A stretch of 23,281 nucleotides of DNA from a virus. This document shows, in pieces, positions 6,886-23,187 of this stretch. Where the stretch lies: the IMG/VR virus record IMGVR_UViG_3300009702_000089, positions 1 through 23,281 of that record. One strand, 5' to 3'. The position numbers were made by a program, and so were the translations under genes. The notes beneath the pieces were generated by a model. The model saw only the letters and a list, made by a program, of their open reading frames with translations, was not told the DNA's origin and did not search any database. Each line of letters opens with the position of its first letter. Within the stretch, counting starts at the first letter, position 1.

Positions 6886-7155
6886 TCAGCCGATCCTCTT
6901 GCGCTTGCGGGTGGAGGACGACTTCACCGCGGTCTTGGCGGCCGGGGCCTTGGACGGCCCGGCCTTGTGCTGCGGGCGCGCGGCTGTCGCGGCCACCCTG
7001 GCTGCGTCGAGCAGATCTTCCATCCGGAGCAGCGCTGCCAGGATGTGAGTGAGCGTCTCGCCGGGCACCGGGAGTGCCCCGCCACCGATCGCCCGCTCCG
7101 CGTCCTGGCGCGTCGGTGTGTGCCCCTGATCCGGGCGATCGGCAGCGGCGGCCAT
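6886..7155 (-). CDS. Small lysine-rich protein after the capsid gene, hypothetical
   Basis: With ATG 7155, sharing its first base with the capsid stop (TGATG), this gene gives 89 residues: MAAAADRPDQGHTPTRQDAE and onward. The middle is a helix (LPVPGETLTHILAALLRMEDLLDAARVAA). The last 25 residues are a Lys/Ala tail (AGPSKAPAAKTAVKSSSTRKRKRIG) of histone-tail-like composition. A much longer upstream extension of the frame is a shadow of the capsid gene. No known family. The basic tail could contact DNA or the acidic inside of the head, but that is a guess. Confidence 0.6.
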   Translation of the reverse strand: MAAAADRPDQGHTPTRQDAERAIGGGALPVPGETLTHILAALLRMEDLLDAARVAATAARPQHKAGPSKAPAAKTAVKSSSTRKRKRIG

Positions 7156-8147
7156 CAGGCGGCGGCCTTGTTGGCCAGGTACAAGTGGCGCCAGTTGATG
7201 CAGGCGGCGCCGAAGAACGAAGTCGCAACCACGAACCACTGCTTGGCTTTCTGATCGAACGCGGTCTCGATCAGCGGGGCGCCGCTGTCGTACATCTGGA
7301 TCCCCTTGCCCCGCTGGACGAGCCACCAGGCGGATGCCGAGGCGGAGTCGTCGAGGTGAGCCCACTCGACTACGCTGAGTTCTCCATTCAGCGTGTTGAT
7401 GTCGTTGTTCGAGCCACCTGGCAGGAGCGCGCTGTTGAGCAGCGTCCGCGCGGTCCGGCCCATCGAGCCCGCCGGGACGAGCAGCGTATCTGGCCGGATC
7501 GCCACCCGCTCGCCGGTCTCGGAGACCGCGTTCGTGACGCGCATGGCGTCGAGAGCGGTGCCGAGATTGGCACTGGTGAGCGCCGAGGACACGACGTGAT
7601 TGGCGTAGGTGCCCGACGCAGCGGCAAGCGTGTGCGCCGTGTCGAATAGCGGCAGGCCGTCGAAGATGAAGCCGGCATGAGGATCCGCCTCGTTCGGGAA
7701 GCTGTTGTCGAACCGCGCCCGATCGCCGGCGGTGAGGCTGCCCTTCTGCAAGATGTCCGCGACGAAGTCCTCCTTCCACAGGGCGAACGTCTCACCCCAC
7801 CCGGCCCCGATCTGGGCCAGGAGCGAAGTGACACGACCGACCGCATTGCTGGATTCCATCATCCGGCGGGGGATGTCGATCCGACGCGAGATCTCGCGGA
7901 TCTTGAGGTAGTACGTGTACCCGGACTTGATGTCCGTCGCGGGACTCTCCTCGCCGTCGTGGACCTCGATCGGCCGCTGGACGTTTGTGATCACCGAGCC
8001 CTTGACGCCGTAGGGATCACCGAACTTGCTGACCGCCGCGACGGGGAAGAGCTGCTCCCGCACGTTGGGCTGGCGCTCGTAGGTATCGAACATGAGCGGA
8101 TAGACGGTGCGGTCGACCAGCTCGGGGACGTTGGAGATATCGGCCAT
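7155..8147 (-). CDS. Major capsid protein, Mu gpT-like HK97-fold
   Basis: This 330-residue protein resembles the Mu-like major head subunit gpT group of HK97-fold capsid proteins. Recognisable parts are an N-terminal arm with VYPLMFDTYERQPNVREQLF, the motif YTYYLKIREISRRIDIPRRM, the segment FDGLPLFDTAHTL (about 164-176), and AIRPDTLLVPAGSMGRTART (about 217-236). Then LLPGGSNNDINTLNG leads into a terminal beta strand with WWLVQRGKGIQMYD. It would assemble the icosahedral shell. It lies downstream of scaffold-like and decoration-like genes, as expected. No separate protease is visible in the window, so prohead processing could be absent, or depend on a gene elsewhere or on the scaffold. Confidence 0.85.
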   Translation of the reverse strand: MADISNVPELVDRTVYPLMFDTYERQPNVREQLFPVAAVSKFGDPYGVKGSVITNVQRPIEVHDGEESPATDIKSGYTYYLKIREISRRIDIPRRMMESSNAVGRVTSLLAQIGAGWGETFALWKEDFVADILQKGSLTAGDRARFDNSFPNEADPHAGFIFDGLPLFDTAHTLAAASGTYANHVVSSALTSANLGTALDAMRVTNAVSETGERVAIRPDTLLVPAGSMGRTARTLLNSALLPGGSNNDINTLNGELSVVEWAHLDDSASASAWWLVQRGKGIQMYDSGAPLIETAFDQKAKQWFVVATSFFGAACINWRHLYLANKAAA

Positions 8148-9440: not shown

Positions 9441-10973
9441 ATGTCTGTACTGTCCTGGGCGCAGGGTCTACGCAGCTTCGGTGGGCGGTCGTCGCGCACC
9501 CACGACGCCGAGGCGCAGGTCCAATCGTCCATGCCGACCACGGAAGACGAGTGGGCGTCGTACTACACGCGCCGCGAGATGGCCTACCTCGGGGAGCCCT
9601 ACAGCCTGGGCGAGATCGTCGACCAGCGTCTGTTCCGGGCGCTGGATCCCAGCGGCAACATCATCAGCGAGACGCGCCGACTGACGCGCGACGTGCAGCA
9701 TGTCGTCGACATGGACACCGCTGGGATCTGCGGCACGTCGTGGACACTCCAGCCAAGCATCGAAAGCGCCACGGCCATGCGGTTCGCGGAAGCGGCGGCC
9801 AGGCTGTGGAAGCGGAGCCAGGTAGCAGAGCGTCGGGAGGCGTGGGTTCGGTGGGGCGCGTCGATGGGCGACTTCTCGCTCGAGGCGGTGCGCACCTCGA
9901 GCAGCAAGCCATACCGGCCGGTCCTCGTCGCCTACGATCCCCGCTGGATCAAAGCGTTGGACTACGATCGGGACACGGGGCTGCGGCTGGTGCGCGCGGT
10001 CATCTCCGCGCCGTACTTCGACGCGGCCCAGATCTCTGCTCACGGCGAAGTGCAGAATGACGACGGGGCGGCGCATACCTACACCCGAGTCCTGACCCCT
10101 GATCGCGTGGATGTCTACGTGGACGGCAAGCTGGACGAGGCAGCGAGCGGCGAGCACGGGCTCGGCGTCGTGCCACTCGCACAGCTGCAAATGACGCCGT
10201 ACACCGATCCGAGTCACGGCCTCTGGGCGGCGCAGGGACTCGACGCGCCGCTGTCGATGGTCGACAGCCTGCTGACGCAGATCTCCGCGATCGGAAATCG
10301 TCACGCCAACCCGCTCCTCGCGATCTTCGGGAGCCAGATCGAAAGCGGCGGCGGCGCTCTGTTCGCGCTCGGTCGGATCCTGAACGGCGTCGCATCCGAT
10401 GGCCGGGTCGAGTACGTCGAGGCGGCGATGCAGGGCGTGACCACACTGCTCGAGGCGGCCAAGTATGCTCGCGAGCAGGCCCGGCAAACGCTGCCGGAGT
10501 TTCTGTTCTCGGACAGCTCGGCGGCGGCCTCTGGATCATCGCTCAATTTCCGCGCGCAGCAGTACGTGACGAAGATCGAGTCCGTGCGGGGTCGGTGGTT
10601 CGCGACGCTGGCACGGGTGAGCGGCTACGCGTTGGCGCTCGAGGACGGACGAGCGTGGGATCCCGAAGCACCCGGAGTAGTGGTCAGTGCTCCACCGGTG
10701 CTGCCGATCAACGCGGCCGCCGAGATCCAGTCGCTCGTCGACGCGCGCCAGCTCGGCGGGCTGAAGGCCGTCGACATCGTGCAGCACCTCCAGCGGATCG
10801 GGATCGTCCCAGCGGATGCGGATCCGACCACCTACGAGGCCGAGGTCGCCGCCGAGCTCGACCAGTCCCGCCAGGCCGACGCCGCTGCACTGGCGACTGC
10901 CACCGGACTGCCTACGCCACCGGTCCAGGCACTCGGTCCGCCAGTGGTATCACCGGCACCGAAGGGTCAGTAG
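9441..10973 (+). CDS. Portal protein
   Basis: This 510-residue protein (ATG 9441 behind GGAGG) is a phage portal of the SPP1 gp6 / Mu gp29-like type, the dodecameric ring through which DNA enters the head. Supporting features are an N-terminal region with SLGEIVDQRLFRALDPSGNI, a central segment FSLEAVRTSSSKPYRPVLVAYDPRWI, and the aromatic/polar crown-like part about 385-445 with FRAQQYVTKIESVRGRWFAT. The ending INAAAEIQSLVDARQLGGLK resembles the C-termini of many portals. It is the only virion gene on the plus strand in this window, convergent with terL (7-bp overlap) and divergent from the scaffold. In related phages the portal lies on the same strand as terL. Confidence 0.85.
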   Translation: MSVLSWAQGLRSFGGRSSRTHDAEAQVQSSMPTTEDEWASYYTRREMAYLGEPYSLGEIVDQRLFRALDPSGNIISETRRLTRDVQHVVDMDTAGICGTSWTLQPSIESATAMRFAEAAARLWKRSQVAERREAWVRWGASMGDFSLEAVRTSSSKPYRPVLVAYDPRWIKALDYDRDTGLRLVRAVISAPYFDAAQISAHGEVQNDDGAAHTYTRVLTPDRVDVYVDGKLDEAASGEHGLGVVPLAQLQMTPYTDPSHGLWAAQGLDAPLSMVDSLLTQISAIGNRHANPLLAIFGSQIESGGGALFALGRILNGVASDGRVEYVEAAMQGVTTLLEAAKYAREQARQTLPEFLFSDSSAAASGSSLNFRAQQYVTKIESVRGRWFATLARVSGYALALEDGRAWDPEAPGVVVSAPPVLPINAAAEIQSLVDARQLGGLKAVDIVQHLQRIGIVPADADPTTYEAEVAAELDQSRQADAAALATATGLPTPPVQALGPPVVSPAPKGQ

Positions 10974-12346
10974 CCATGCAGCCCCGGAGGGCCGGCGCTG
11001 AACCGCAGCGAGGGGAGCGGCCTGGCGCCGAGGTAGATCGACCGGCTCGGGCGAGTTGGCTGGGTGAGCGCCTCGAGCAACACGTAGCGTAGGCCGTCGA
11101 TCGGATCTTTCTCCGGGTCCCGCGGACCCGCCGCCTGGTAGTGCCACAGGGCGCGGATCAAGCGCTTGCAGCGGGCGTGCACTCGAAGCTCGCGCCGCTC
11201 GAGCGCGATGTTGATGCATCGCTCGCCGAAGGCGACGCTCCCCTTGGCCTTGGCTGGGACGGTGACCATCACCTGCGGCACCCCGAAGCAGCGTCCGAGT
11301 ACCGGACCGAGCTGCTGGTTGACGCTCTCACCCACGCTGCCCTTGCCCGCGGAATTGGCATCTCCGCGCCACAGCTTGATCCGCGCGAAGGGAACCGACC
11401 GACGCTCGAGCATCGCAGCGACGCTCACCCCGTCGGCCTCTGGATCGGTGGCGGTCGGATTGACGTACTCGTCGATCACCGTCACGGTCTGGTCGTCCCA
11501 CACGATCAGAGCCGCGTACTCCCGCCCGGCATTCTCCCCGTGATCCATCCCGATCCCGGCCCACAGGTAGTCCGTCGGATCGTCGTGCACGATGCAGTCG
11601 GCGTGCATCGCGGTGAAGCGTCGATCTCGGGCGGGCCCCTCCCACTCGCCCCGTACTCGCTGCGGACGCTCGATCGGATCGTACTTGGCGACCATGGCCC
11701 GGATCTCCGCCTCACTTCGCCACGGGCACTCGGTGACGGACAGCTCGGGCACGTACTGATGCCAGTCCTCCTCGGGGGGCTCGCCGGTGGCTGGATCTCC
11801 CTCGACACGCGCCCGGACCCAGGCCGGATCTCGCCCGATCGGCGTCAGGGTCTGCCAGATCGGACCGTGGACCCCACGGACGAAGGCGTAGTAGTTGGCG
11901 GGCCGGGCGACCTCGTCAACCCAGGCCGCACCAGCGGTGAATCCCTCGAGTCCTTGGACCGGCCCACCACCCGAGCGGAACAGCCAGCGGACACCGTTTT
12001 TGTACCTGATTCCACGACGGCCGTGCAGGTAGAATCCACGGCCATCCACGTAGATCGTGGCCGGGTCTATCTCGGGCCAGGTGATCACCTCCGCGACCTT
12101 GACGGAGAGTTCCGGATAGTGATTTTCGAGATCGGCGACCAGCACACCGAACACCGACCCGGGATGCATCAGGCTCCACGCGTCCGCTCGCTTGGCGCCG
12201 GCGAGCGTCTTGCCTACCTGGTTCGGCGCCCTCAGCAGGTCGCGGTAATGTCGCGAGGCGATGAAGCGCGAGATCGTCGGCCCGGGCGAGTAGAACGCGC
12301 CGGGGTACGCGTCGGCCACCGCCACACCCGCCGCGGCCGACTCCAC
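10967..12346 (-). CDS. terL: Terminase large subunit (ATPase and nuclease)
   Basis: The GTG at 12346, 6 bp behind AAGGAGG that overlaps the terS end, gives 459 residues. The N-terminal ATPase has a Walker A-type motif RAPNQVGKT (39-47) and a Walker B-like GAAWVDE (139-145). The C-terminal nuclease shows AGIGMDHGE with Asp about 268 as the first metal ligand, a second acidic cluster VIDEY near 290-294, WRGDANS further on, and DPIDGLRY near the end. It cuts and pumps DNA into the head through the portal. The frame continues 28 codons upstream of the GTG, overlapping terS, but lacks a better start. It is convergent with the portal by 7 bp. Confidence 0.88.
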   Translation of the reverse strand: MESAAAGVAVADAYPGAFYSPGPTISRFIASRHYRDLLRAPNQVGKTLAGAKRADAWSLMHPGSVFGVLVADLENHYPELSVKVAEVITWPEIDPATIYVDGRGFYLHGRRGIRYKNGVRWLFRSGGGPVQGLEGFTAGAAWVDEVARPANYYAFVRGVHGPIWQTLTPIGRDPAWVRARVEGDPATGEPPEEDWHQYVPELSVTECPWRSEAEIRAMVAKYDPIERPQRVRGEWEGPARDRRFTAMHADCIVHDDPTDYLWAGIGMDHGENAGREYAALIVWDDQTVTVIDEYVNPTATDPEADGVSVAAMLERRSVPFARIKLWRGDANSAGKGSVGESVNQQLGPVLGRCFGVPQVMVTVPAKAKGSVAFGERCINIALERRELRVHARCKRLIRALWHYQAAGPRDPEKDPIDGLRYVLLEALTQPTRPSRSIYLGARPLPSLRFSAGPPGLHGY

Positions 12347-12347
12347 G

Positions 12348-12800
12348 TCAGTCCTCCTTGCGCCCGGCGGCCTCGGCCAGGAGATGGGCGACTCGGTGTG
12401 GAGCACGCTCGCACCACATCTGCAAAACATCCTCGGGCGTCAGGCGGCTCGGATCCGCCTCGCGGCTCTCCTCGCCCCAGTCTGGTCGCTCTGTCCGCCC
12501 ACGCGTGTAACCCCTCGATCGCTCGAGGCGAAACATCGCCGCCTTGATGTCACCGTCGGCGGCCGCCTTCTCGAGCGTGAGTAGATCTCGGACGGCCTGG
12601 TTCGCCTCGGCCTCCCGCAACCGCACAATGAAGCCCGCGTACTCCGGATCCCCATTTCGGTCACGGGCGATCCAGTCGTAGAAGGTCTGCCTTCCGATCC
12701 CGGCCGCACCGCACGCATGCTCCCGCGTCGCTCCGAGTCGGAGCGCCCTGAACAGCCGATCGAGCACCTCCGGCTTGTACTTGTACGGACCCTTCGGCAT
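12348..12800 (-). CDS. terS: Terminase small subunit
   Basis: This 150-residue protein starts MPKGPYKYKPEVLDRLFRAL, followed by a helix-turn-helix (LGATREHACGAAGIGRQTFYDW, about residues 22-43) and a helical part (EYAGFIVRLREAEANQAVRD, LLTLEKAAADGDIKAAMFRL). This architecture, with the motif 'GxxxEHACxxAGIxRxTFYxW', is typical of phage terminase small subunits that recognise packaging sites. The ATG at 12800 follows GGAGGTGGCGTG; an adjacent in-frame GTG at 12803 is an alternative. Its stop lies between the Shine-Dalgarno and start codon of terL, so the two are likely coupled. Confidence 0.85.
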   Translation of the reverse strand: MPKGPYKYKPEVLDRLFRALRLGATREHACGAAGIGRQTFYDWIARDRNGDPEYAGFIVRLREAEANQAVRDLLTLEKAAADGDIKAAMFRLERSRGYTRGRTERPDWGEESREADPSRLTPEDVLQMWCERAPHRVAHLLAEAAGRKED

Positions 12801-12871: not shown

Positions 12872-13714
12872 ATGACGAAGTACAACAAGCCGCTCGGCGA
12901 GAGCGGGATCGAGTGGACGAACAGGACATGGAACCCCGTCACCGGATGCAACAAGGTGAGCGCTGGATGCACACACTGCTACGCGGAGACGCTCGCGAAG
13001 CGCCTCCAGGCGATGGGGAACCCCCGGTATACCTACGGCTTCGAGCCGACGCTGCACTGGGACAAAATTGACGAACCTCGCGGGTGGCGGAAGCCCGAGT
13101 GGGTGTTCGTCAACTCGATGTCGGACCTGCTGCACTCGCGAGTGCCGGACAGGTTTATCACTTCGGTGTTCCGCACGATGGCGGAAACGCCGCAGCATCG
13201 CTACCAGGTGCTGACCAAGCGGCCCGAGCGGTGGCGGTCGATCACCGAGCTCGTCGTACGCGAGCTGGGCGCGTGGCCACACAATGTTCTGCCTGGCACG
13301 TCGGTCGAGAACCGGCAGGTGGTCGAAGGCACGCGCAAGATCGCGCCGCGTCTGACGGCGCTGTCGGCCGCGGGTGACGCTCGGACCGTGCGCATGATCT
13401 CGGCAGAGCCTCTGCTCGGGAGCCTGGTCCCCAAGGGCGGCACCGTCGACGACCTCGGACTCGAGTTGCTCGAGGCCGGTATCGGCTGGGTCATCGCCGG
13501 CGGCGAGGCCGGCTTCCTCGCCAGGCCTGCACGGATCGACTGGTTCCGAGAGCTGCGAGACGCCTGCGAAGCTGCCGGCATCCCGTATTTCTTCAAGCAG
13601 TTCGGCGGGCGCGGAACGACGAAGGCGGCCAAGCGTGGCGGGAAGCTCGCGGTGCTGGACGGGCGCCTGCATCACGCGATGCCGACACTCGAGGAGCAGC
13701 CCCGGCTGCTGTGA
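12872..13714 (+). CDS. DUF5131 (phage Gp37/Gp68) three-cysteine protein
   Basis: This 280-residue protein matches the phage Gp37/Gp68 family (DUF5131, PF07505) in order and motif: IEWTNRTWNPVTGCNKVSAG at residues 13-32, with Cys26, Cys33 and Cys36 in CX6CX2C followed by YAE, then WVFVNSMSDLLH (about 77-88), VLTKRPERW, PGTSVENR, MISAEPLLG, WVIAGGE and the end PYFFKQFGG. The three-Cys pattern resembles iron-sulfur sites of radical SAM enzymes, but its reaction is not established to my knowledge. It is one of two plus-strand genes in a minus-strand block, with an AGGAGGG site before its ATG. The downstream convergent gene may be its partner (see finding). Confidence 0.9.
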   Translation: MTKYNKPLGESGIEWTNRTWNPVTGCNKVSAGCTHCYAETLAKRLQAMGNPRYTYGFEPTLHWDKIDEPRGWRKPEWVFVNSMSDLLHSRVPDRFITSVFRTMAETPQHRYQVLTKRPERWRSITELVVRELGAWPHNVLPGTSVENRQVVEGTRKIAPRLTALSAAGDARTVRMISAEPLLGSLVPKGGTVDDLGLELLEAGIGWVIAGGEAGFLARPARIDWFRELRDACEAAGIPYFFKQFGGRGTTKAAKRGGKLAVLDGRLHHAMPTLEEQPRLL

Positions 13715-15001: not shown

Positions 15002-15442
15002 CTAGCATGTTTTCTCGACCGTGATCTCGCAGCACGGTCCCTCCTCCACCGCCGCATACCATTTCTCGGCGTGGATCTGTACCACGATCCGATCATCGAC
15101 GAGCACCCCGCCTCGCACGAGCCCATCGAGCACCGCCTTGACGACGTTGTCCAGATCCGGCCGGACAGCACAAGCAATGCGACCTCGCGGATCGGACCGA
15201 CGGTGCAACCGCTTTGGGCGGCGGAGCACGGCGACGATCTGAAGCGACACTGCATCGCGGAGCGGCGCACCGATCGCGTGGTGCGCCGCGGCCCGAGAGG
15301 CGCAGAGCGCGACCATTTGCTCGTAGGCCACCGTCCGCGATGGCGTGTACGTCGTCACCACCCCTCCCGAGTAACGCGAAAACCGAGGTCGCCCCTTGGC
15401 AATTGGCTGCCCGGGCACAATACACGTGATGCATGCGCTCAT
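15002..15442 (-). CDS. rusA: RusA-family Holliday junction resolvase
   Basis: The ATG at 15442 overlaps the helicase loader stop (ATGA) and has GAGGAG upstream, giving 146 residues. The protein starts MSACITCIVPGQPIAKGRPR, with the family's 'PIAKGRPR' element. It also has the catalytic core RPDLDNVVKAVLDGL (94-108) with Asp96, Asp98 and Lys102, then VLVDDRIV with Asp117, matching the Asp pattern of E. coli RusA. It resolves branched DNA made during phage recombination and replication and fits with the ERF annealing protein, exonuclease and SSB at 20.4-23.2 kb. It is the last gene of the leftward replication operon before a 102-bp gap. Confidence 0.88.
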   Translation of the reverse strand: MSACITCIVPGQPIAKGRPRFSRYSGGVVTTYTPSRTVAYEQMVALCASRAAAHHAIGAPLRDAVSLQIVAVLRRPKRLHRRSDPRGRIACAVRPDLDNVVKAVLDGLVRGGVLVDDRIVVQIHAEKWYAAVEEGPCCEITVEKTC

Positions 15443-16431
15443 GATGCCACCCGCTCCTCGCGCCAGTCGATACCGCCGAGACGTAGCCCCCGACCCTCGC
15501 ACATTTCACCGAGTCGCGAGGCAACGCGGTGCCCGTAGGCCGGCTGGTCACTCTCGACCATCTCGTCCCACGTCAGATTGCTGGTGATGACCATCGGCAG
15601 GCGGTGGTCATATCGGTACGCGACCAGTCGCTCTACCGCCTGGACGGCGATCCCGTGCCCCACCGTGCCCCGATCGAGCACTCCGAGATCATCCAGCACC
15701 AGGACCTGCGTGCAGGCGATCACCCGAAGCGGATCCTTGTCGCCGCTCCATCGCATTTTGAGCCGATCGACGAGCTCCTCCTCGTCCAAATAATGCACCT
15801 CCACCGAGGGGGCGCCGGCGAATTGCAGTGCGCCGGGCAGACAGGGGGCGGGACGACCGTCCGCGGCGATCTCGACGTGGAGCGGAGCCATCCCGCGCCG
15901 GCCCGACAGGAAGCGCGTGCACAACGCGGCCACCAGTACGCTCTTGCCAGTCCCGGGTGGCCCGTGCAGGAACACCGAGCCCATCCGAGGAGTCCACCCC
16001 CGCAGGTGAACGATCGCGGTCGTGTTCGCCGGCGTCGCGGCGAGGATCCTGCGTGCACCCGGCCGTCGATTATGTGCCGTGATCCGCTGGCGGAAGGCGT
16101 CGGTGCGCTCCCCGTGCCGAGATTTTTGCAGCCGGTCGAAGCTCCAGCCACGAAGGCCAGGAGGCAACCCCGCAGCGCGTTGACGCCGCTCGAGGCGAGC
16201 CAGGCTCTGCTGTCGTTCGGCCTCCGGTGCGCAGTCCGCGCACGGATCGACCACCGGCCTACACCACCTCGAGCGGATCAACTCGGGGCGCGAGCTCCGC
16301 CACCAGATCGCCGGCCACTCCTGCCCGCAGCCACACCGCTCTGGTGGCGGTCGCTGAACACCCGAAGAGGCTGAGCGCAGAGGCCCGGCTCGGCGGTCGA
16401 TCACTTCTGGGATGTCCGTCCAATCGGTCAT
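15439..16431 (-). CDS. DnaC-like helicase loader ATPase
   Basis: With the ATG at 16431 (overlapping the initiator stop, ATGA) the protein is 330 residues; the GTG at 16440 would add three. The N-terminus has a cysteine cluster (Cys33, Cys35, Cys57, Cys64, Cys67) that could bind zinc. The AAA+ core holds Walker A GPPGTGKS (157-164), Walker B VLVLDDLG (243-250), and a sensor-like VITSNLTWDE near 290-299, followed by VASRLGEMCEG. This matches DnaC/lambda P-type loaders that place the replicative helicase on the origin. It follows directly the O-like initiator, as gene P follows gene O in lambda. Confidence 0.88.
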   Translation of the reverse strand: MTDWTDIPEVIDRRAGPLRSASSGVQRPPPERCGCGQEWPAIWWRSSRPELIRSRWCRPVVDPCADCAPEAERQQSLARLERRQRAAGLPPGLRGWSFDRLQKSRHGERTDAFRQRITAHNRRPGARRILAATPANTTAIVHLRGWTPRMGSVFLHGPPGTGKSVLVAALCTRFLSGRRGMAPLHVEIAADGRPAPCLPGALQFAGAPSVEVHYLDEEELVDRLKMRWSGDKDPLRVIACTQVLVLDDLGVLDRGTVGHGIAVQAVERLVAYRYDHRLPMVITSNLTWDEMVESDQPAYGHRVASRLGEMCEGRGLRLGGIDWREERVAS

Positions 16432-17648
16432 GACTGCCACTCCGTGGAGGGTGGGATCGATGCCACCGGGGTGTCGGGATCAAATGCCTCGTACGCCTCG
16501 AGCTCCTCGGCCGTCGGCTCGGCGGGGGGATGCGCACCTCTCGAGCTGGGGCTGGCTCGCGATCGAGACGCCGGGCCTCGAGCGAAGCCAAGGTACGCCT
16601 CGAAGTTGGCCGGCCGCATGAGCGTCAGCAACGACAACCCGCGCTCCCGGAGAAACACCGCCCGCTCGTGATCGCTCTCCGTGGCCCAGGTCAGCACGTC
16701 GAGTACCGCCTGCAGCCCGTGCTCCCGGAGCCGGGCCGCGAGGTGCACGCCCTGGCCGCGTCCCTTGCGGGGCATGGGGCCCCCCGGCAGCAGCTGCTTC
16801 CACCGGGCTGCGGCTATCGAGAACGCCTGGCCGTTGATCGGTGTTGGGGCATCACGCACAACGTCGATGTCCGGAACGGACTCGACATGTATTGTTCTCT
16901 CCTTGTTGGGTTTGTTGGGTTTGTTGGGTTTCGGGCGCGTGTAACTATAATGGGCCGGTAGGCGACTGGTAGGTACCCCGGTAGTTTTCTGCTCGATATC
17001 CGGCGTTGCTCCGTCTTCGACCGGTAGGCGACCGGTAGGCGACCGGTAGGGGCCCGGTAGGGGCCCGGTGTTGGCGCCGGTAACCGGTAGGCACCCGGTA
17101 GTTTTCCGCCCGATATCCGGCGTTGCTCCGTGCGTCACCGGTAGGCGACCGGTAGGCGACTGGTCGGGAACCGATCGGTGATCGGAAGGTGACTGGCGGG
17201 GCCGCTGGTGACCGGTGGGCGCACTGGTAGGTGCACCGGTAGGTACCCCGGTAGTTTTCTGCTCGATATGTGACGTTTCTCCGTCTTCGACCGGTAGGCG
17301 ACTGGTAGGTGACCGATCGGGGCCCGGTAGGCACCCGGTAGTTTTCCGCCCGATATCCGACGTTGCTCCGTCCTTGACCGGTAGGCGACCGGTAGGGGTG
17401 CCGGTGGGGTCGCTGGAAGCGAACGGATCACGCCACTCCTGGTCGTCCCGCAGCACGCGCCGCACACACCAGTCGCTCCATCCCCAGCGTCTGGCGCACA
17501 CCAGCCTCCCCGGGCGTACTCGTCCGGCGCGGGTGTCGCTCCACCACCGCAGATCCATCATCACCGCTTCATGAGGCCATGGCTTCGGGAGGGTCTCGGC
17601 GATCGCCTCCCACCAGGCCCCCTCGATCCGCGCCCATCCCCCGGCCAT
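16428..17648 (-). CDS. O-like replication initiator with embedded repeats
   Basis: The ATG at 17648 (TGATG junction with the preceding gene) gives 406 residues; the frame continues to 17957 only as a shadow. Residues 1-80 hold a winged-helix-like part (GAWWEAIAETLPKPWPHEAV, RWGWSDWCVRRVLRD). Residues about 81-232 are a low-complexity Pro/Thr/Gly linker made of repeated units (TGRLPVEDGATPDI, then EQKTTGVPTG and variants). Residues about 240-249 are PNKPNKPNK, then the C-terminus (about 290-360) shows ARWKQLLPGG, AVLDVLTWATES and RERGLSLLTLMRPANFEAYL, like DnaD/phage-O C-termini. Followed directly by a DnaC-like loader. The iteron-like DNA in the linker region makes it a candidate origin-binding protein. 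Confidence 0.75.
   Translation of the reverse strand: MAGGWARIEGAWWEAIAETLPKPWPHEAVMMDLRWWSDTRAGRVRPGRLVCARRWGWSDWCVRRVLRDDQEWRDPFASSDPTGTPTGRLPVKDGATSDIGRKTTGCLPGPDRSPTSRLPVEDGETSHIEQKTTGVPTGAPTSAPTGHQRPRQSPSDHRSVPDQSPTGRLPVTHGATPDIGRKTTGCLPVTGANTGPLPGPYRSPTGRLPVEDGATPDIEQKTTGVPTSRLPAHYSYTRPKPNKPNKPNKERTIHVESVPDIDVVRDAPTPINGQAFSIAAARWKQLLPGGPMPRKGRGQGVHLAARLREHGLQAVLDVLTWATESDHERAVFLRERGLSLLTLMRPANFEAYLGFARGPASRSRASPSSRGAHPPAEPTAEELEAYEAFDPDTPVASIPPSTEWQS
16886..16951. repeat. AT-richer stretch with three 9-bp repeats next to the iteron array
   Basis: Compared with its surroundings this segment is clearly AT-richer. Three tandem copies of TTGTTGGGT at 16903-16911, 16912-16920 and 16921-16929 encode PNKPNKPNK on the minus strand. 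A perfect -10 hexamer TATAAT on the plus strand lies at 16946-16951. An AT-rich patch beside iterons is the layout of lambda's ori; here it would be the possible DNA-unwinding element. Inference only. Confidence 0.5.
16953..17406. repeat. 11-bp iteron-like repeat array inside the initiator gene (candidate origin)
   Basis: On the plus strand a unit close to GACCGGTAGGC recurs with 11-bp (sometimes 12-bp) spacing. Cores of CCGGTA start at 16955, 17021, 17032, 17043, 17054, 17084, 17095, 17138, 17149, 17236, 17248, 17291, 17324, 17335, 17378 and 17389, with variants at 16966, 17160, 17224, 17302 and 17313. Four clusters are separated by conserved 37-bp spacers at about 16982-17018, 17099-17135, 17252-17288 and 17339-17375, each with a CGATAT core. 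The unit length of 11 bp is not a multiple of three, although the four spacers all fall in one reading frame. Beside it lies a less GC-rich stretch. Confidence 0.85.
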
Positions 17649-17869
17649 CAACTGCGCCGCTCCACCTCGGCGAGTCGCCGACGGACTCGCCAGTCGCTCC
17701 ACCCCCAGCGACGTTGCAAGAGCCAGCGGCCCGGGCGCTTTCCGGTGGTGGCCTGGTACCACTCGAGATCGCAATCGGCAGCCACCCGCGGCCACGGCTT
17801 CCCGCTGCGGGTGAGCACGGCAACCACATCGGGCCAGTCGTCGGCGCGCAAGTGCAACATGATCGACAT
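17648..17869 (-). CDS. Small protein resembling the initiator N-terminal domain
   Basis: A 73-residue gene starts at ATG 17869 with an AGGAGG site 4-6 bp upstream, and its TGA overlaps the initiator ATG (TGATG). The sequence closely parallels the initiator N-terminus: KPWP, then DL-W, RPGR, and RRWGWSDW-VRR-L in the same order and spacing. It lacks the repeats and the C-terminal DnaD-like part. It therefore looks like a duplicated DNA-binding domain, with a possible role in binding the same iteron DNA or controlling initiation (inference). It is the first gene of the leftward replication operon. Confidence 0.7.
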   Translation of the reverse strand: MSIMLHLRADDWPDVVAVLTRSGKPWPRVAADCDLEWYQATTGKRPGRWLLQRRWGWSDWRVRRRLAEVERRS

Positions 17870-18004: not shown

Positions 18005-18217
18005 TCACGCCTCACCCGCCAGGCCGCACTCTGCACCGCCCGCCGCGAGCATGGCGGCGCGGATCTCGTCGAGCACATCGTGTGGGCCGTACACGGTCAC
18101 CACCTGCTCGCACGTACGCAGGCGCACGAGCCCGAGCTGGACGATCGGATCGAACATTTCGACGATTTCGACGAACAGCTCCTCGGTCTGCGCAGCGATC
18201 ACGAGGCGATCGGTCAT
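18005..18217 (-). CDS. Small hypothetical protein in the early left operon (70 aa)
   Basis: The ATG at 18217 overlaps the upstream methyltransferase TGA (ATGA), which supports translation. The 70-residue product MTDRLVIAAQTEELFVEIVE and onward is acidic, with a beta-alpha pattern (VRLRTCEQVVTVYGPHDVLDEIRAAMLAAG) and no membrane helix. I do not recognise a family. Being tied to the C5-methyltransferase gene, it could be an accessory or regulatory factor, but nothing in the sequence proves this. Confidence 0.6.
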   Translation of the reverse strand: MTDRLVIAAQTEELFVEIVEMFDPIVQLGLVRLRTCEQVVTVYGPHDVLDEIRAAMLAAGGAECGLAGEA

Positions 18218-19305
18218 GAGGTGAGATCCTCGACCAGGTCGATCCTACGTCCGATCCAGCGCATGACATTGACCGCCATCGAGTTTCCAATCGCCCGGTA
18301 GCGCGGCGTATTCGCACATCGTTCGGCTGGGCGACCGCGGTAGGGCACCCGCGTCCAGTCATCCGGGAATCCCTGTAGTCGCTCGCATTCCCGCGGGGTC
18401 AAGCGGCGTACCACGGCATCCTGGAGAACACCCAGCCCATTATCGCTCGCGCCCAGGGGGTGCGTCACAGCACCAGACGGATCCGGATCTTGACGGTTGT
18501 GGAAGGCGGTGATCGCGGGGGGTCGCGTGTGCAGCGTGTAGCAAGGCCGGCCCGGCTCGATCACCATGCGATGAGCGGGGGACGTGATCTGTCGAGGATC
18601 GAAGACTATCGGCAGGGGCGTCTCGGTCTCGGCATCATACCGCTGCCCGGAACTCAGGCGCCGCGCCGCACCACCGCCTCCAGCGCCTGCCGCAATGCCC
18701 GAGGAAGTCTCCTGCCCCGCCTCTCGGCGCGGAGGAGGATCCCCCGACAGGCTCTCACGCTCGAAAAGTACCGCGGCGGCACGCTGCCAAGCTCCTCCAG
18801 CACATCCGACAGCGAACACACGGCGCCGTCGCTGTGGGACGGCACGAGGGTAGCCGTCCACTCGGACGTACTGAGCGTCCAGGACTCGCCAGCACATGCC
18901 ATACCCGAGCTGGACCAACGCCCCGATGATGGAACCAAAGTCCCGTCCTCCTCCCGATGACAGGACGCCGGGCACGTTCTCCCATACCACCCATTTGGGC
19001 CGCAGGCGTCGAGCCAGGCGGCAATACTCGAGGGCCAGGTTACCGCGGTCGTCATCCATCCCTTCACGGAGTCCAGCGATCGAGAAGGACTGACAGGGCG
19101 TGCCGCCAACGAGAAGATCGATTGCTGCATATTGTCCTTCCTTGATCGTCGTGAAGTCACCGTGCAGGGGCACGCCCGGGTAGCGATGCTCCAGGACCGC
19201 GCGCGGGAATTGCGCGATCTCCGCGAAAAATGAAGGTCGCCATCCCAATGGCTCCCACGCCACCGACGCGGCCTCGATCCCCGAGCAGATCGACCCGTAG
19301 ATCAC
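18214..19305 (-). CDS. C5-cytosine DNA methyltransferase
   Basis: The GTG at 19305 overlaps the preceding TGA (GTGA) and gives 363 residues, with motif I at the very N-terminus: VIYGSICSGIEAASVAWEPL. Motif IV is GGTPCQSFS with the catalytic Cys at 71, motif VI is WENVPG (ENV 109-111), motif VIII is QRRRRVF (158-164), motif IX is RRLTPRECERLQGFPDDW, and motif X is AIGNSMAVNVM (338-348). All key motifs are intact. The segment from about 170 to 295, between VIII and IX, should hold target recognition. It methylates cytosine at C5 in DNA; with no restriction partner visible it is probably an orphan phage enzyme that protects the phage genome or regulates it. Confidence 0.92.
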   Translation of the reverse strand: MIYGSICSGIEAASVAWEPLGWRPSFFAEIAQFPRAVLEHRYPGVPLHGDFTTIKEGQYAAIDLLVGGTPCQSFSIAGLREGMDDDRGNLALEYCRLARRLRPKWVVWENVPGVLSSGGGRDFGSIIGALVQLGYGMCWRVLDAQYVRVDGYPRAVPQRRRRVFAVGCAGGAWQRAAAVLFERESLSGDPPPRREAGQETSSGIAAGAGGGGAARRLSSGQRYDAETETPLPIVFDPRQITSPAHRMVIEPGRPCYTLHTRPPAITAFHNRQDPDPSGAVTHPLGASDNGLGVLQDAVVRRLTPRECERLQGFPDDWTRVPYRGRPAERCANTPRYRAIGNSMAVNVMRWIGRRIDLVEDLTS

Positions 19306-19523
19306 GGCACTTTCACGTTGGGCTCGCCGGTCAGTGCAACCCATCCTCGCCCCCTGGGTCCACACCAGCGTCCGATCCGCCCGCGCTGCCACAGCCAGCC
19401 GATCGCGCCGGAGACGGATCGCTCGCTCGTCCCGATGCACAGTGCCACGTCGCGTGGCGTCAGCACCAGCGAGCCGTGCACCGCTCTCAGGAGGGCGAGT
19501 ACGCGGGTGGTCGCGTCATTCAT
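19302..19523 (-). CDS. Small winged-helix DNA-binding protein
   Basis: Starting at ATG 19523, the 73-residue product is MNDATTRVLALLRAVHGSLV then LTPRDVALCIGTSERSVSGA and IGWLWQRGRIGRWCGPRGRGWVAL. The helix, helix (SERSVSGAIGWLWQRG) and beta-hairpin wing (RIGRWCGPRGRGWVAL) give a typical winged helix. The gene overlaps the preceding gene by 8 bp and its TGA overlaps the methyltransferase GTG, so it is tightly coupled to the methyltransferase. A role as transcriptional regulator of the operon is inferred. The open frame runs upstream to 19700 but that part shadows another gene. Confidence 0.62.
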   Translation of the reverse strand: MNDATTRVLALLRAVHGSLVLTPRDVALCIGTSERSVSGAIGWLWQRGRIGRWCGPRGRGWVALTGEPNVKVP

Positions 19524-20995: not shown

Positions 20996-21261
20996 ATTAC
21001 GACTCGTGGAAGCTGGCGAGCCCGCCCGAATACGACGACGACGCACCGATCCCTCTCGACGTGGAGGTGCCCTGGATCTGCGTCCAGTGCGGCTTGCATG
21101 GTATGGCGTACCAGTCATGGGAGCTGCTCGAGGACGATCGCACCCTCGTGGAGCAATTCGATGACGGTGGGGCAGGCCTGTGGTTGGGAGAACGACAGAA
21201 CGGCACATGCGAGGTGGTGTGCGAATACTGCCAAGGAGACAATGACCATGCGGACGAGTGA
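20992..21261 (+). CDS. Small zinc-ribbon-like protein
   Basis: The ATG at 20992 (GAGGAG upstream, ATGA overlap) gives 89 residues. Two Cys pairs, ICVQCG (about residues 28-33) and CEVVCEYC (about 75-82), are about 45 residues apart with an acidic, aromatic middle (YQSWELLEDDRTLVEQFDDG). The CXXC...CXXC layout suggests a single zinc-binding ribbon. Such small proteins are common in phage early regions. Function unknown; no signature for a named family. Confidence 0.65.
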   Translation: MNYDSWKLASPPEYDDDAPIPLDVEVPWICVQCGLHGMAYQSWELLEDDRTLVEQFDDGGAGLWLGERQNGTCEVVCEYCQGDNDHADE

Positions 21262-21994
21262 CCAGATCGAGGCGGTGGCGGGAGCGATCGCCGCCGTGCA
21301 GGCGCAACTCGAGGCCGTCCGCGAGGACGGAACGAACCCACACTTTCGATCGCGGTACGCGACACTGGGGAGGATCTGGGACGCGATCCGCCCCCACCTG
21401 GCTGCACAGGGGCTCGCGATCATCCAGGCGCTCGGCTCGGATGATGACCGCCTGACCTGCACGACGCGTCTGATCCACGCGGCCAGCGGACAGTGGATCG
21501 AGACCACCGTGGGGATCCAGCCGGCCAAGCCCGGACCGCAAGCCCTCGGAAGCGCTGCGACCTACCTGCGCCGGTACAGCCTATCGGCTCTGCTGGGGGT
21601 GACCACCGGCGAGGACGACGACGGGGAGGCCGCCGAGCGCAGGCCGGAACGCCAACGCGGTACGCCCCGCCAGTCCCCGCGCACAAAGCATGTCGCGTCC
21701 GATCCGGGGCACCACCCGAGTTGGGCGAATAATCGCAAGTGGTTCATGGCCGCGCTGTCGGGACCGGGCTCCCCTGACCTGCCGGCAGGACCGCTGGGCC
21801 AGGTCGACCTCCCCGGCGGTATCAGCGCCTACGCGCTGGTGGCGAAGTGGTGCGAGTCGATCGGTCGCCCTCGGCCCTCGGGGATGGACCCCGAGCAGCG
21901 CGAGCAGCTGATCGCCTACCTGCGCACCGAGCGGGGCCTCGCGGCCGTGCTCCGGTACGGAGACGAACTCACCGGACAGGAGGTGGAGCCATGA
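21248..21994 (+). CDS. erf: ERF-family single-strand annealing protein
   Basis: The frame starts at ATG 21248 (9 bp behind GGAG) or 21242 (3 bp behind), giving about 248-250 residues. The N-terminal domain has the ERF signature: residues about 30-41 (NPHFRSRYATLG), 55-60 (GLAIIQ), and the strongly conserved LGSAATYLRRYSLSALLGV (100-118) followed by an acidic run GEDDD. ERF proteins pair complementary single strands in phage recombination. The C-terminal half (about 140-248) is variable. With SSB and a RecB-like exonuclease just downstream, it forms a complete recombination module. It overlaps the preceding gene by about 14-20 bp. Confidence 0.87.
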   Translation: MRTSDQIEAVAGAIAAVQAQLEAVREDGTNPHFRSRYATLGRIWDAIRPHLAAQGLAIIQALGSDDDRLTCTTRLIHAASGQWIETTVGIQPAKPGPQALGSAATYLRRYSLSALLGVTTGEDDDGEAAERRPERQRGTPRQSPRTKHVASDPGHHPSWANNRKWFMAALSGPGSPDLPAGPLGQVDLPGGISAYALVAKWCESIGRPRPSGMDPEQREQLIAYLRTERGLAAVLRYGDELTGQEVEP

Positions 21995-22107
21995 CCGATC
22001 GCACCGGTCCCCATCGCACTCTGCTGGTTCCGGTGGTGGTCGATGGTGACGCGGGGCTGCCGCGTACGAGCAGGTACTGTTGCGCACACAGTGAGGAGGG
22101 AGCATGA
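21991..22107 (+). CDS. Tiny coupled ORF between erf and ssb (38 aa)
   Basis: ATG 21991 overlaps the erf TGA and the ORF's own TGA (22105-22107) overlaps the ssb ATG, so it joins both by ATGA. The product is 38 residues (MTDRTGPHRTLLVPVVVDGD and AGLPRTSRYCCAHSEEGA). No family can be named. It may encode a real peptide or just act as a translational bridge between erf and ssb. Confidence 0.5.
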   Translation: MTDRTGPHRTLLVPVVVDGDAGLPRTSRYCCAHSEEGA

Positions 22108-22502
22108 GTTTCCACGGAGTGATCGTGGGTCGGCTGGGCGCCGACCCGGAGACGAGGATTGCCGGTCAGTCGACCGTGACCACGCTCCGCGTCGCGACGG
22201 ACGCGGGCTGGGGCGGGCGCAAGACGACCACCTGGACCACGATGGAGATCTGGGGCCGGCGCGGTGAGGCTGCCGCTGAACACCTGAGACGCGGACGCGC
22301 CGTGGAGTGCTCCGGTGAGGTGTCGCTCGAGGAGTGGGAGGGCCGTGATGGCAAGCGCTGGACCCTGCGGCTCCTGCACGCGGATTGGACTTTCGTTCCG
22401 ACCGATGTGCGTTCCGACGGGGCTGGCCGTGTCGAGCGCGATCAGGAGCCCCGGCGTGCCCACCAGCAGCAGGAGAGGGCCGACGATGACATCCCATTCT
22501 GA
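22104..22502 (+). CDS. ssb: Single-stranded DNA-binding protein
   Basis: A 132-residue protein starts MSFHGVIVGRLGADPETRIA, with the SSB-type OB-fold pattern: 'GRLGxDPExR', then TTLRVATDAGWGGRKTTTWT with EIWGRRGEAAAEHLRRGRAV (about 50-68) and GEVSLEEWEGRDGKRW. The C-terminus has a Gln/Arg-rich linker and ends DDDIPF, the conserved acidic tip by which SSBs bind partner proteins such as exonucleases and resolvases. It lies between erf and the PD-(D/E)XK nuclease. A GAGGAGG site precedes the ATG at 22104. Confidence 0.92.
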   Translation: MSFHGVIVGRLGADPETRIAGQSTVTTLRVATDAGWGGRKTTTWTTMEIWGRRGEAAAEHLRRGRAVECSGEVSLEEWEGRDGKRWTLRLLHADWTFVPTDVRSDGAGRVERDQEPRRAHQQQERADDDIPF

Positions 22503-22518
22503 TGACGGCGGAGGCGTG

Positions 22519-23187
22519 ATGACGGACAAGATCGAACGAGGGACGGGACGGCCACCTGGCGGATACTCCCCGGATCTGATCAGCGTCACCACGGTCCTGC
22601 GGCGTAAAGACCCGGGCGGATTGATGTGGTGGGCGAACCGAGCCGGACTGCGAGGGCAGTCGCTCGCGGAGGCCCGCAAGGGCTCGGCTGGGGTCGGCAC
22701 GGCGGTACACGCTCTGATCGAGGCATGGATCCACGGCCAGGAGGACGAGCACCAGCGAGTGCTCGATCAGGCCGAGGATGACGGTCTCCCTCTCGAGGTG
22801 GTGCGTGCCGCGTACGGCGCATTTCGCGCGTGGTGGGAGGAGATGGGGCTCGCGATCCGTGCCACCGAGATCCCACTCGAGGACACCGCACTTGGGATCG
22901 CGGGCACACTCGACGTGCTGCTCGAGGACAGGGCTGGGCACCTGTGGATCGGTGACTGGAAGACGTCGAAGGCGGTGTATCCCGAAATGGTCGCCCAGCT
23001 CGCGGCCTACGCCCACCTGTGGACGCTCAATCGCGGGCAGTCGATCGCAGGTGGGCGCATCATCCGCGTGAGCAAGGGCGGCACCACGCACGCGCACCGA
23101 TACCCGGATCTATCCGCTGGGTGGGACATGTTCCGGGCGCTGCTCGATGCGGAAATGGCGGCGCGACGGATCAAGGAGATCCTGTAG
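22519..23187 (+). CDS. PD-(D/E)XK exonuclease, RecB/Cas4-like
   Basis: With ATG 22519 (GGAGG 4 bp upstream) the product is 222 residues; an ATG at 22486 within the end of ssb, behind GAGGG, would add 11. Motifs of the RecB-like nuclease family are present in order: GTAVHALIE with His64, GIAGTLDVLLED with Asp132, IGDWKTSK with Asp146 and Lys148, and QLAAYAHLW with Gln160 and Tyr164. Such enzymes resect double-strand ends to feed annealing proteins, here the ERF protein. It is the last gene seen in the rightward operon. Confidence 0.85.
   Translation: MTDKIERGTGRPPGGYSPDLISVTTVLRRKDPGGLMWWANRAGLRGQSLAEARKGSAGVGTAVHALIEAWIHGQEDEHQRVLDQAEDDGLPLEVVRAAYGAFRAWWEEMGLAIRATEIPLEDTALGIAGTLDVLLEDRAGHLWIGDWKTSKAVYPEMVAQLAAYAHLWTLNRGQSIAGGRIIRVSKGGTTHAHRYPDLSAGWDMFRALLDAEMAARRIKEIL

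Follow-up and report, generated by a model that had tools for sequence, protein, structure and literature searches.

An iteron array inside the replication initiator gene of an uncultured phage as its candidate replication origin

The window, by which we mean the whole stretch of DNA analysed here, covers the entire virus record of 23,281 bp and is GC-rich. Its replication genes are on the minus strand and follow one another with short overlaps. The first is a 73-aa ORF (17648..17869), a stand-alone paralog of the DNA-binding N-terminus of the replication initiator (43% identity), whose stop overlaps the initiator start in the sequence TGATG. The initiator gene itself (16428..17648, 406 aa) is an ORF encoding an N-terminal part that bears a helix-turn-helix (HTH), a linker coded by repeats, and a C-terminal domain. 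Its end is overlapped by 13 bp by the gene for a DnaC-like helicase loader (15439..16440), recognised by matches to phrog_50 (E = 9.1e-24) and phrog_3277 (E = 3.4e-11), with IstB_IS21 also above cut-off. The claim of the first-pass annotation that such a loader follows the initiator is thus borne out. Searches for relatives of the loader in viral_contigs and phages found none.

Upstream of the replication genes, also on the minus strand, lies a gene for a C5-cytosine DNA methyltransferase (18214-19440; PF00145, E = 7e-49). Avoidance of CCGG or ACCGGT was considered as a tie to this enzyme and dropped, there being no signal in the window (CCGG, 258 observed vs. 255 expected). CTAG occurs 7 times in the whole window against 19 expected from a Markov estimate. 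A recombination set consisting of an ERF annealing protein, an SSB, and a PD-(D/E)XK exonuclease (21098-23187) is on the plus strand, the initiator and loader being on the minus strand. The putative large terminase gene (10967-12430) has a sub-threshold Pfam match and no tblastn match among phage records at 1e-3, and no terminase relatives were found in phages and viral_contigs. The terminase genes have as their neighbour on the other strand a gene for a DUF5131 protein (12872-13714, plus strand; PF07505, E = 2e-76). A portal-like ORF (9441-10973, plus strand), called by the look of its sequence and by its position with no Pfam match, converges on the terminase gene and appears inverted inside the head cluster, the head genes around it being on the minus strand. 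The major head protein (gene at 7155-8147, minus strand) matched Mu-like gpT weakly (PF10124, E = 1.4e-6).

The initiator protein has no Pfam or PHROG match, and no close relative of it was found in viral_contigs and phages. A search of genomes and viral contigs with the window-specific motif WGWSDWxVRR likewise found no relatives. The AF2 model of the N-terminal part contains a helix-turn-helix with helices 46-55 and 59-73 (pLDDT ~75-82), for which Foldseek returned no match; for the C-terminal part, AF2 run on the single sequence gave a poor model (pLDDT 49). The code for the putative recognition-helix motif, RRWGWSDWCVRR, lies at 17457..17492 (minus strand), and the motif is common to the upstream paralog, appears in the hhalign comparison, and falls in the AF2 helices. 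In that comparison, a profile of the initiator and its paralog matched 12 phage initiator N-termini, among them those of SPP1 G38P, HK022 O, and PVL orf 46, with P = 1.4e-5 and a probability of 80% over 21 columns. Judging from this one short motif match, the initiator is likely akin to the O/G38P-type domains. Its N-terminus is shorter than those of the relatives and is without their beta-wing-like tail. The gene had earlier been called O-like, a description that gets no backing from Pfam or PHROG and depends on this weaker evidence.

Within the initiator gene, an array of iteron-like repeats extends over 455 bp (16954-17408). It consists of about 28 copies of ACCGGTAGGNN (CGCCTACCGGT on the coding strand), all on the plus strand and spaced 11-12 bp apart. 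When the array is read as a register of 30 units, 28 of them are within three mismatches of ACCGGTAGG, and the spacings are mostly 11 or 12 with a few of 7-10. The exact core CCGGTA occurs 18 times on the plus strand and not once on the minus strand between 16955 and 17394, compared with nine plus-strand and six minus-strand occurrences in the rest of the 23-kb window. The first-pass annotation had counted about 16 such cores, which is slightly low, at spacings of 11 or 12 bp, which mostly holds. It had also described four clusters alternating with four 37-bp spacers at 16886-17406; the four spacers stand, but they are 34 bp long and separate five clusters.

These clusters, all with their units in one plus-strand orientation, are cluster 1 (16954..16985, three units), cluster 2 (17020..17102, eight units, two of them degenerate), cluster 3 (17137..17255, 11 units, several degenerate), cluster 4 (17290..17342, five units), and cluster 5 (17377..17408, three units). 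The step from the last unit of one cluster to the first unit of the next is 43 bp every time, or 34 bp between the 9-mers. Spacers 1 (16986..17019, AT-richer), 2 (17103..17136), and 4 (17343..17376) keep this 43-bp register, as does spacer 3 (17256..17289), where the 40 bp from 17251 rank fourth in AT content among the 40-bp stretches of the window. Tandem-repeat scores of 288 and 252 make the array the strongest repeat in the window, the best score elsewhere being 58 for an adjacent 9-bp repeat, and no second comparable array was found anywhere else in the 23 kb. An exact iteron pair was not found in viral_contigs, and blastn with the array DNA gave no match in phages.

Directly adjoining cluster 1 on the loader side is a putative DNA unwinding element (16887..16951), which is the AT maximum of the window. 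The AT-richest 40, 60, and 80 bp of the window begin at 16887, 16892, and 16873, respectively, and the 40 bp at 16887 are 60% AT against a window mean of 32.6%. Within the element are three 9-bp repeats of TTGTTGGGT (16903..16931, 3.2 copies; ACCCAACAA on the coding strand), which encode PNKPNKPNK. An AT-richer stretch with three 9-bp repeats had been noted beside the array before, and both features are confirmed here. The first-pass annotation had also offered skew as a check on the site, and in this case the expected sign was not seen: GC skew does not change sign at 17 kb, and its cumulative minimum is near 20-21 kb, in a contig that may be a fragment.

To quantify the periodicity, we used the identity of the sequence with itself at a fixed lag, as a first statistic (9-mer counts with two mismatches allowed) was too weak for AT-rich genes. 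The lag-11 identity in the initiator gene is 39/44, and none of 300 shuffles that kept both the protein and the codon usage reached so high a value (z = 7.0).

We then extended the comparison to other initiators. The motif RWGWS[DE]xxVRR retrieved three viral-contig initiators (L002, L003, and L005) and a fourth, L040, from a genome bin of Desulfobacterales; these four were picked by the shared motif itself, which also matches unrelated MurJ genes. In genomes, in fact, the matches to this motif were mostly MurJ or out of frame, L040 being the one true initiator. A tblastn search with the L005 domain identified 86 phage records, including SPP1, HK022, and Staphylococcus, Bacillus, Vibrio, Sulfitobacter, Bacteroides, and Lactobacillus phages. 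The comparison set comprised thirteen of these 86 records, lambda, and the four motif-derived initiators. For each gene, lag identity at 11, 12, and 22-24 bp was tested against 400 synonymous shuffles, and 21 other genes from the same records served as controls. A repeat signal at p ≤ 0.01 was present in 15 of the 19 initiators with the window included (14 of the 18 distant ones) and in none of the 21 controls (Fisher p = 1e-7), the exact p-values being somewhat optimistic because the tested lags were chosen after the earlier 9-mer counts and lag results. No initiator gene reached 0.01 when lags other than those expected of iterons were tried.

The distant phage and prophage initiators share a common layout, in which the HTH code is followed by 11-12-bp (or ~23-bp) repeats and then by an AT-rich tract. 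It was found in SPP1 gene 38 and in Staphylococcus, Bacillus, Vibrio, Sulfitobacter, Bacteroides, and Desulfobacterales phages and prophages. The repeat position is kept even though the units are unrelated between initiators (GCGACGAGRAA in L040, GACACGAAAAA in SPP1, GCGGGACAGCA in the Sulfitobacter phage, and ACCGGTAGGNN in the window), which is the kind of outcome that the first-pass annotation had named, for related phages, as support for iterons. The same annotation had called the unit unfamiliar; this holds for its sequence, but a spacing of 11 bp is usual among the compared genes. In nearly all genes, the AT-richest 40 nt begin right after the array, often with 9-bp repeats, and the AT stretch has a median rank within the top 0.5% of the gene, where a randomly placed zone would be expected at 14%. 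The L040 gene was added later, on its protein motif alone; its z values were 5.5 (lag 11) and 6.8 (lag 22). In its prophage-like initiator ORF, nt 332-440 hold 11-bp GCGACGAGRAA iterons in three frames followed by AT-rich 9-bp repeats, and this order, with AAGAATGTT-like 9-mers after the iterons, mirrors the window.

One alternative explanation is neutral: a linker tolerant of change could have accumulated GC-rich repeats through slippage and the duplication of segments, giving an array with no function of its own. Array segments of ~105 bp are up to 90% identical to each other, and the array therefore grew by segmental duplication, so that part of its copy number may be neutral. The window has ~28 units vs. 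~3-8 in the compared genes. A fit of the units to helical phasing (best at 10.85 bp, vector strength 0.81) was given no weight because the identical 43-bp gaps stem from duplication and are not independent. The spacers, too, look neutral, with pooled pS = 0.130 and pN = 0.133 (a comparison of small power) and thus no visible purifying selection on their protein sequence. The units differ from them, however: between duplicated segments, 1 of 27 iteron columns is variable vs. 11 of 34 spacer columns (Fisher p = 0.008). Within the unit, the nine core positions hold 0.9-2.1 bits and positions 10-11 only 0.4-0.5 bits. This pattern of conservation in units and spacers is the profile of a predicted binding site. 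Neutral duplication also does not account for unrelated phages having different repeats in the same place with 11-12-bp spacing and an AT-rich neighbour, and as an explanation of the whole array we consider it very unlikely.

Protein-level expansion of the linker appears less probable still. Under this explanation, it is the protein that requires an extended linker of repeated sequence (TGRLPVEDGATPDI...KTTG), and the periodicity of the DNA simply follows from it. As had been pointed out in the earlier annotation, all four spacers share one reading frame (offsets 117, 153, 87); they encode similar peptides, and the linker stays open throughout. In-frame spacers are expected anyway, however, because only duplications of a multiple of three keep the C-terminal domain in frame. 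The 11-bp unit itself is read in all three codon frames, giving the differing peptides LPV, YRS, and PTG, and the synonymous shuffles described above fail to reproduce the periodicity; on both counts, the earlier claim of conservation at the DNA level is upheld. The equality of pN and pS in the spacers argues in the same direction, as does GC content by codon position. The N-terminal part of the initiator ORF (0.65/0.64/0.82) and the C-terminal part (0.72/0.56/0.82) have the bias of the other genes in the window, by which both are identified as coding, and this bias is lost in the linker (0.67/0.65/0.61). The array is explained neither by chance nor by protein coding.

Least probable of all is that the array is a set of regulatory sites (an operator, or copy-control or incompatibility sites for the initiator or the small paralog) and that the phage has its origin at another locus. 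In favour of this are the separate copy of the DNA-binding domain encoded immediately upstream, a number of sites far above that of proven in-gene origins, and the second origin, oriR, that SPP1 has elsewhere (PMC6316719). Against it, the array is in the middle of a gene and not at a promoter (a promoter scan over 5.5 kb gave two weak matches, neither adjoining it), the AT maximum of the window adjoins it, and the window has no other comparable array.

The array is very probably the replication origin of this phage, located inside the initiator gene and of the same in-gene iteron type as SPP1 oriL. The first-pass annotation had proposed a phage replication origin at this site, and that reading is supported by the layout of the distant initiators, among them SPP1 gene 38 with its proven oriL (PMC6316719). 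From the array, its independence of protein coding, its AT-rich neighbour, the gene order, and the layout in distant initiators, all of which are observed, we infer a model of initiator binding, melting, helicase recruitment, and origin function. The N-terminal helix-turn-helix of the initiator would bind the ~28 same-strand 11-bp ACCGGTAGGNN sites in its own gene, and the many bound copies would build a large nucleoprotein complex. Strain from this complex would melt the AT-rich element next to the array (16887-16951), in which the three 9-bp repeats lie. The C-terminal part of the initiator would then recruit the DnaC-like loader encoded just downstream, and the loader would place the replicative helicase of the host onto the strand that has been opened.

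Three features set the array apart: its unusual length, its GC-rich unit, and the adjacent stand-alone copy of the DNA-binding domain. The 73-aa paralog may be a regulator. A more speculative idea, which we consider rather doubtful, is that the oversized array (~28 sites whose five clusters keep a 43-bp register) and the paralog together constitute a built-in replication control, in which the 73-aa protein would compete for or bridge the iterons bound by the initiator and set the timing and frequency of origin firing. To our knowledge, no phage in-gene origin combines an oversized array with an upstream stand-alone DNA-binding paralog.

These results give a candidate origin for an uncultured phage without close relatives in the collections searched. 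They also suggest a rule for initiators with such an N-terminal domain, namely that the origin is likely to be where the HTH code gives way directly to 11-12-bp (or ~23-bp) iterons and these in turn to an AT-rich tract. The rule applies even where neither the protein nor the repeat sequence is conserved, and it could find origins of metagenomic phages from sequence alone. Individual cases are known, and in the part of the literature that we covered no paper was found that gives the rule in its general form.

Among known systems, the closest counterpart is SPP1. Its oriL is part of gene 38, the direct repeats there are sites to which gp38 binds at nanomolar affinity, and the unwinding element is an AT-rich region (PMC6316719). 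The array in the window resembles oriL in having same-strand direct repeats inside the gene (GACACGAAAAA in SPP1), spaced 11-12 bp and just 3' of the HTH code, an AT-rich 9-bp-repeat tract after the repeats, and an adjacent helicase loader gene (G39P in SPP1). In our test, SPP1 gene 38 gave a lag-11 signal at nt 356-410 (33/44, 0/300 shuffles), which becomes borderline when the lags are tested jointly (p = 0.065). SPP1 differs from the window in its few units, its AT-richer gene, an unrelated unit sequence, its oriR elsewhere, and its own helicase (G40P).

In lambda, the O protein binds four iterons located within gene O, and in the Stx phages P27 and 933W there are six (PMC7466680). As in these phages, the window has iterons inside the initiator gene, an adjoining AT-rich stretch, and a loader gene (P in lambda) next to it. 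The lambda iterons, four in number, are annotated as 18 bp long and 20-24 bp apart (lag 23), whereas the window has ~28 units of 11 bp; an arrangement of four to six ~18-bp iterons at 20-24 bp was not found in its array. Staphylococcal 80alpha ORF20/ORF21 are an SPP1-like initiator and a DnaC/DnaI-like loader, and the window likewise pairs its initiator with a DnaC-like loader. Attempts to complement an ORF20 mutant in trans failed, which suggests that the origin is embedded in the gene (PMC5499656). PVL orf 46 has 11/22-bp repeats plus an AT tract. Both 80alpha and PVL differ from the window in their AT-rich repeats and few units. The lactococcal TP901-1 ORF13 and Tuc2009 Rep2009 are replisome organizers whose own genes contain the direct-repeat regions that they bind and that constitute the origin (PMC8965321); the window is likened to them by this published description. 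Experiments have established in-gene origins for SPP1, lambda, and TP901-1, and the candidate origin described here is of a kind already known.
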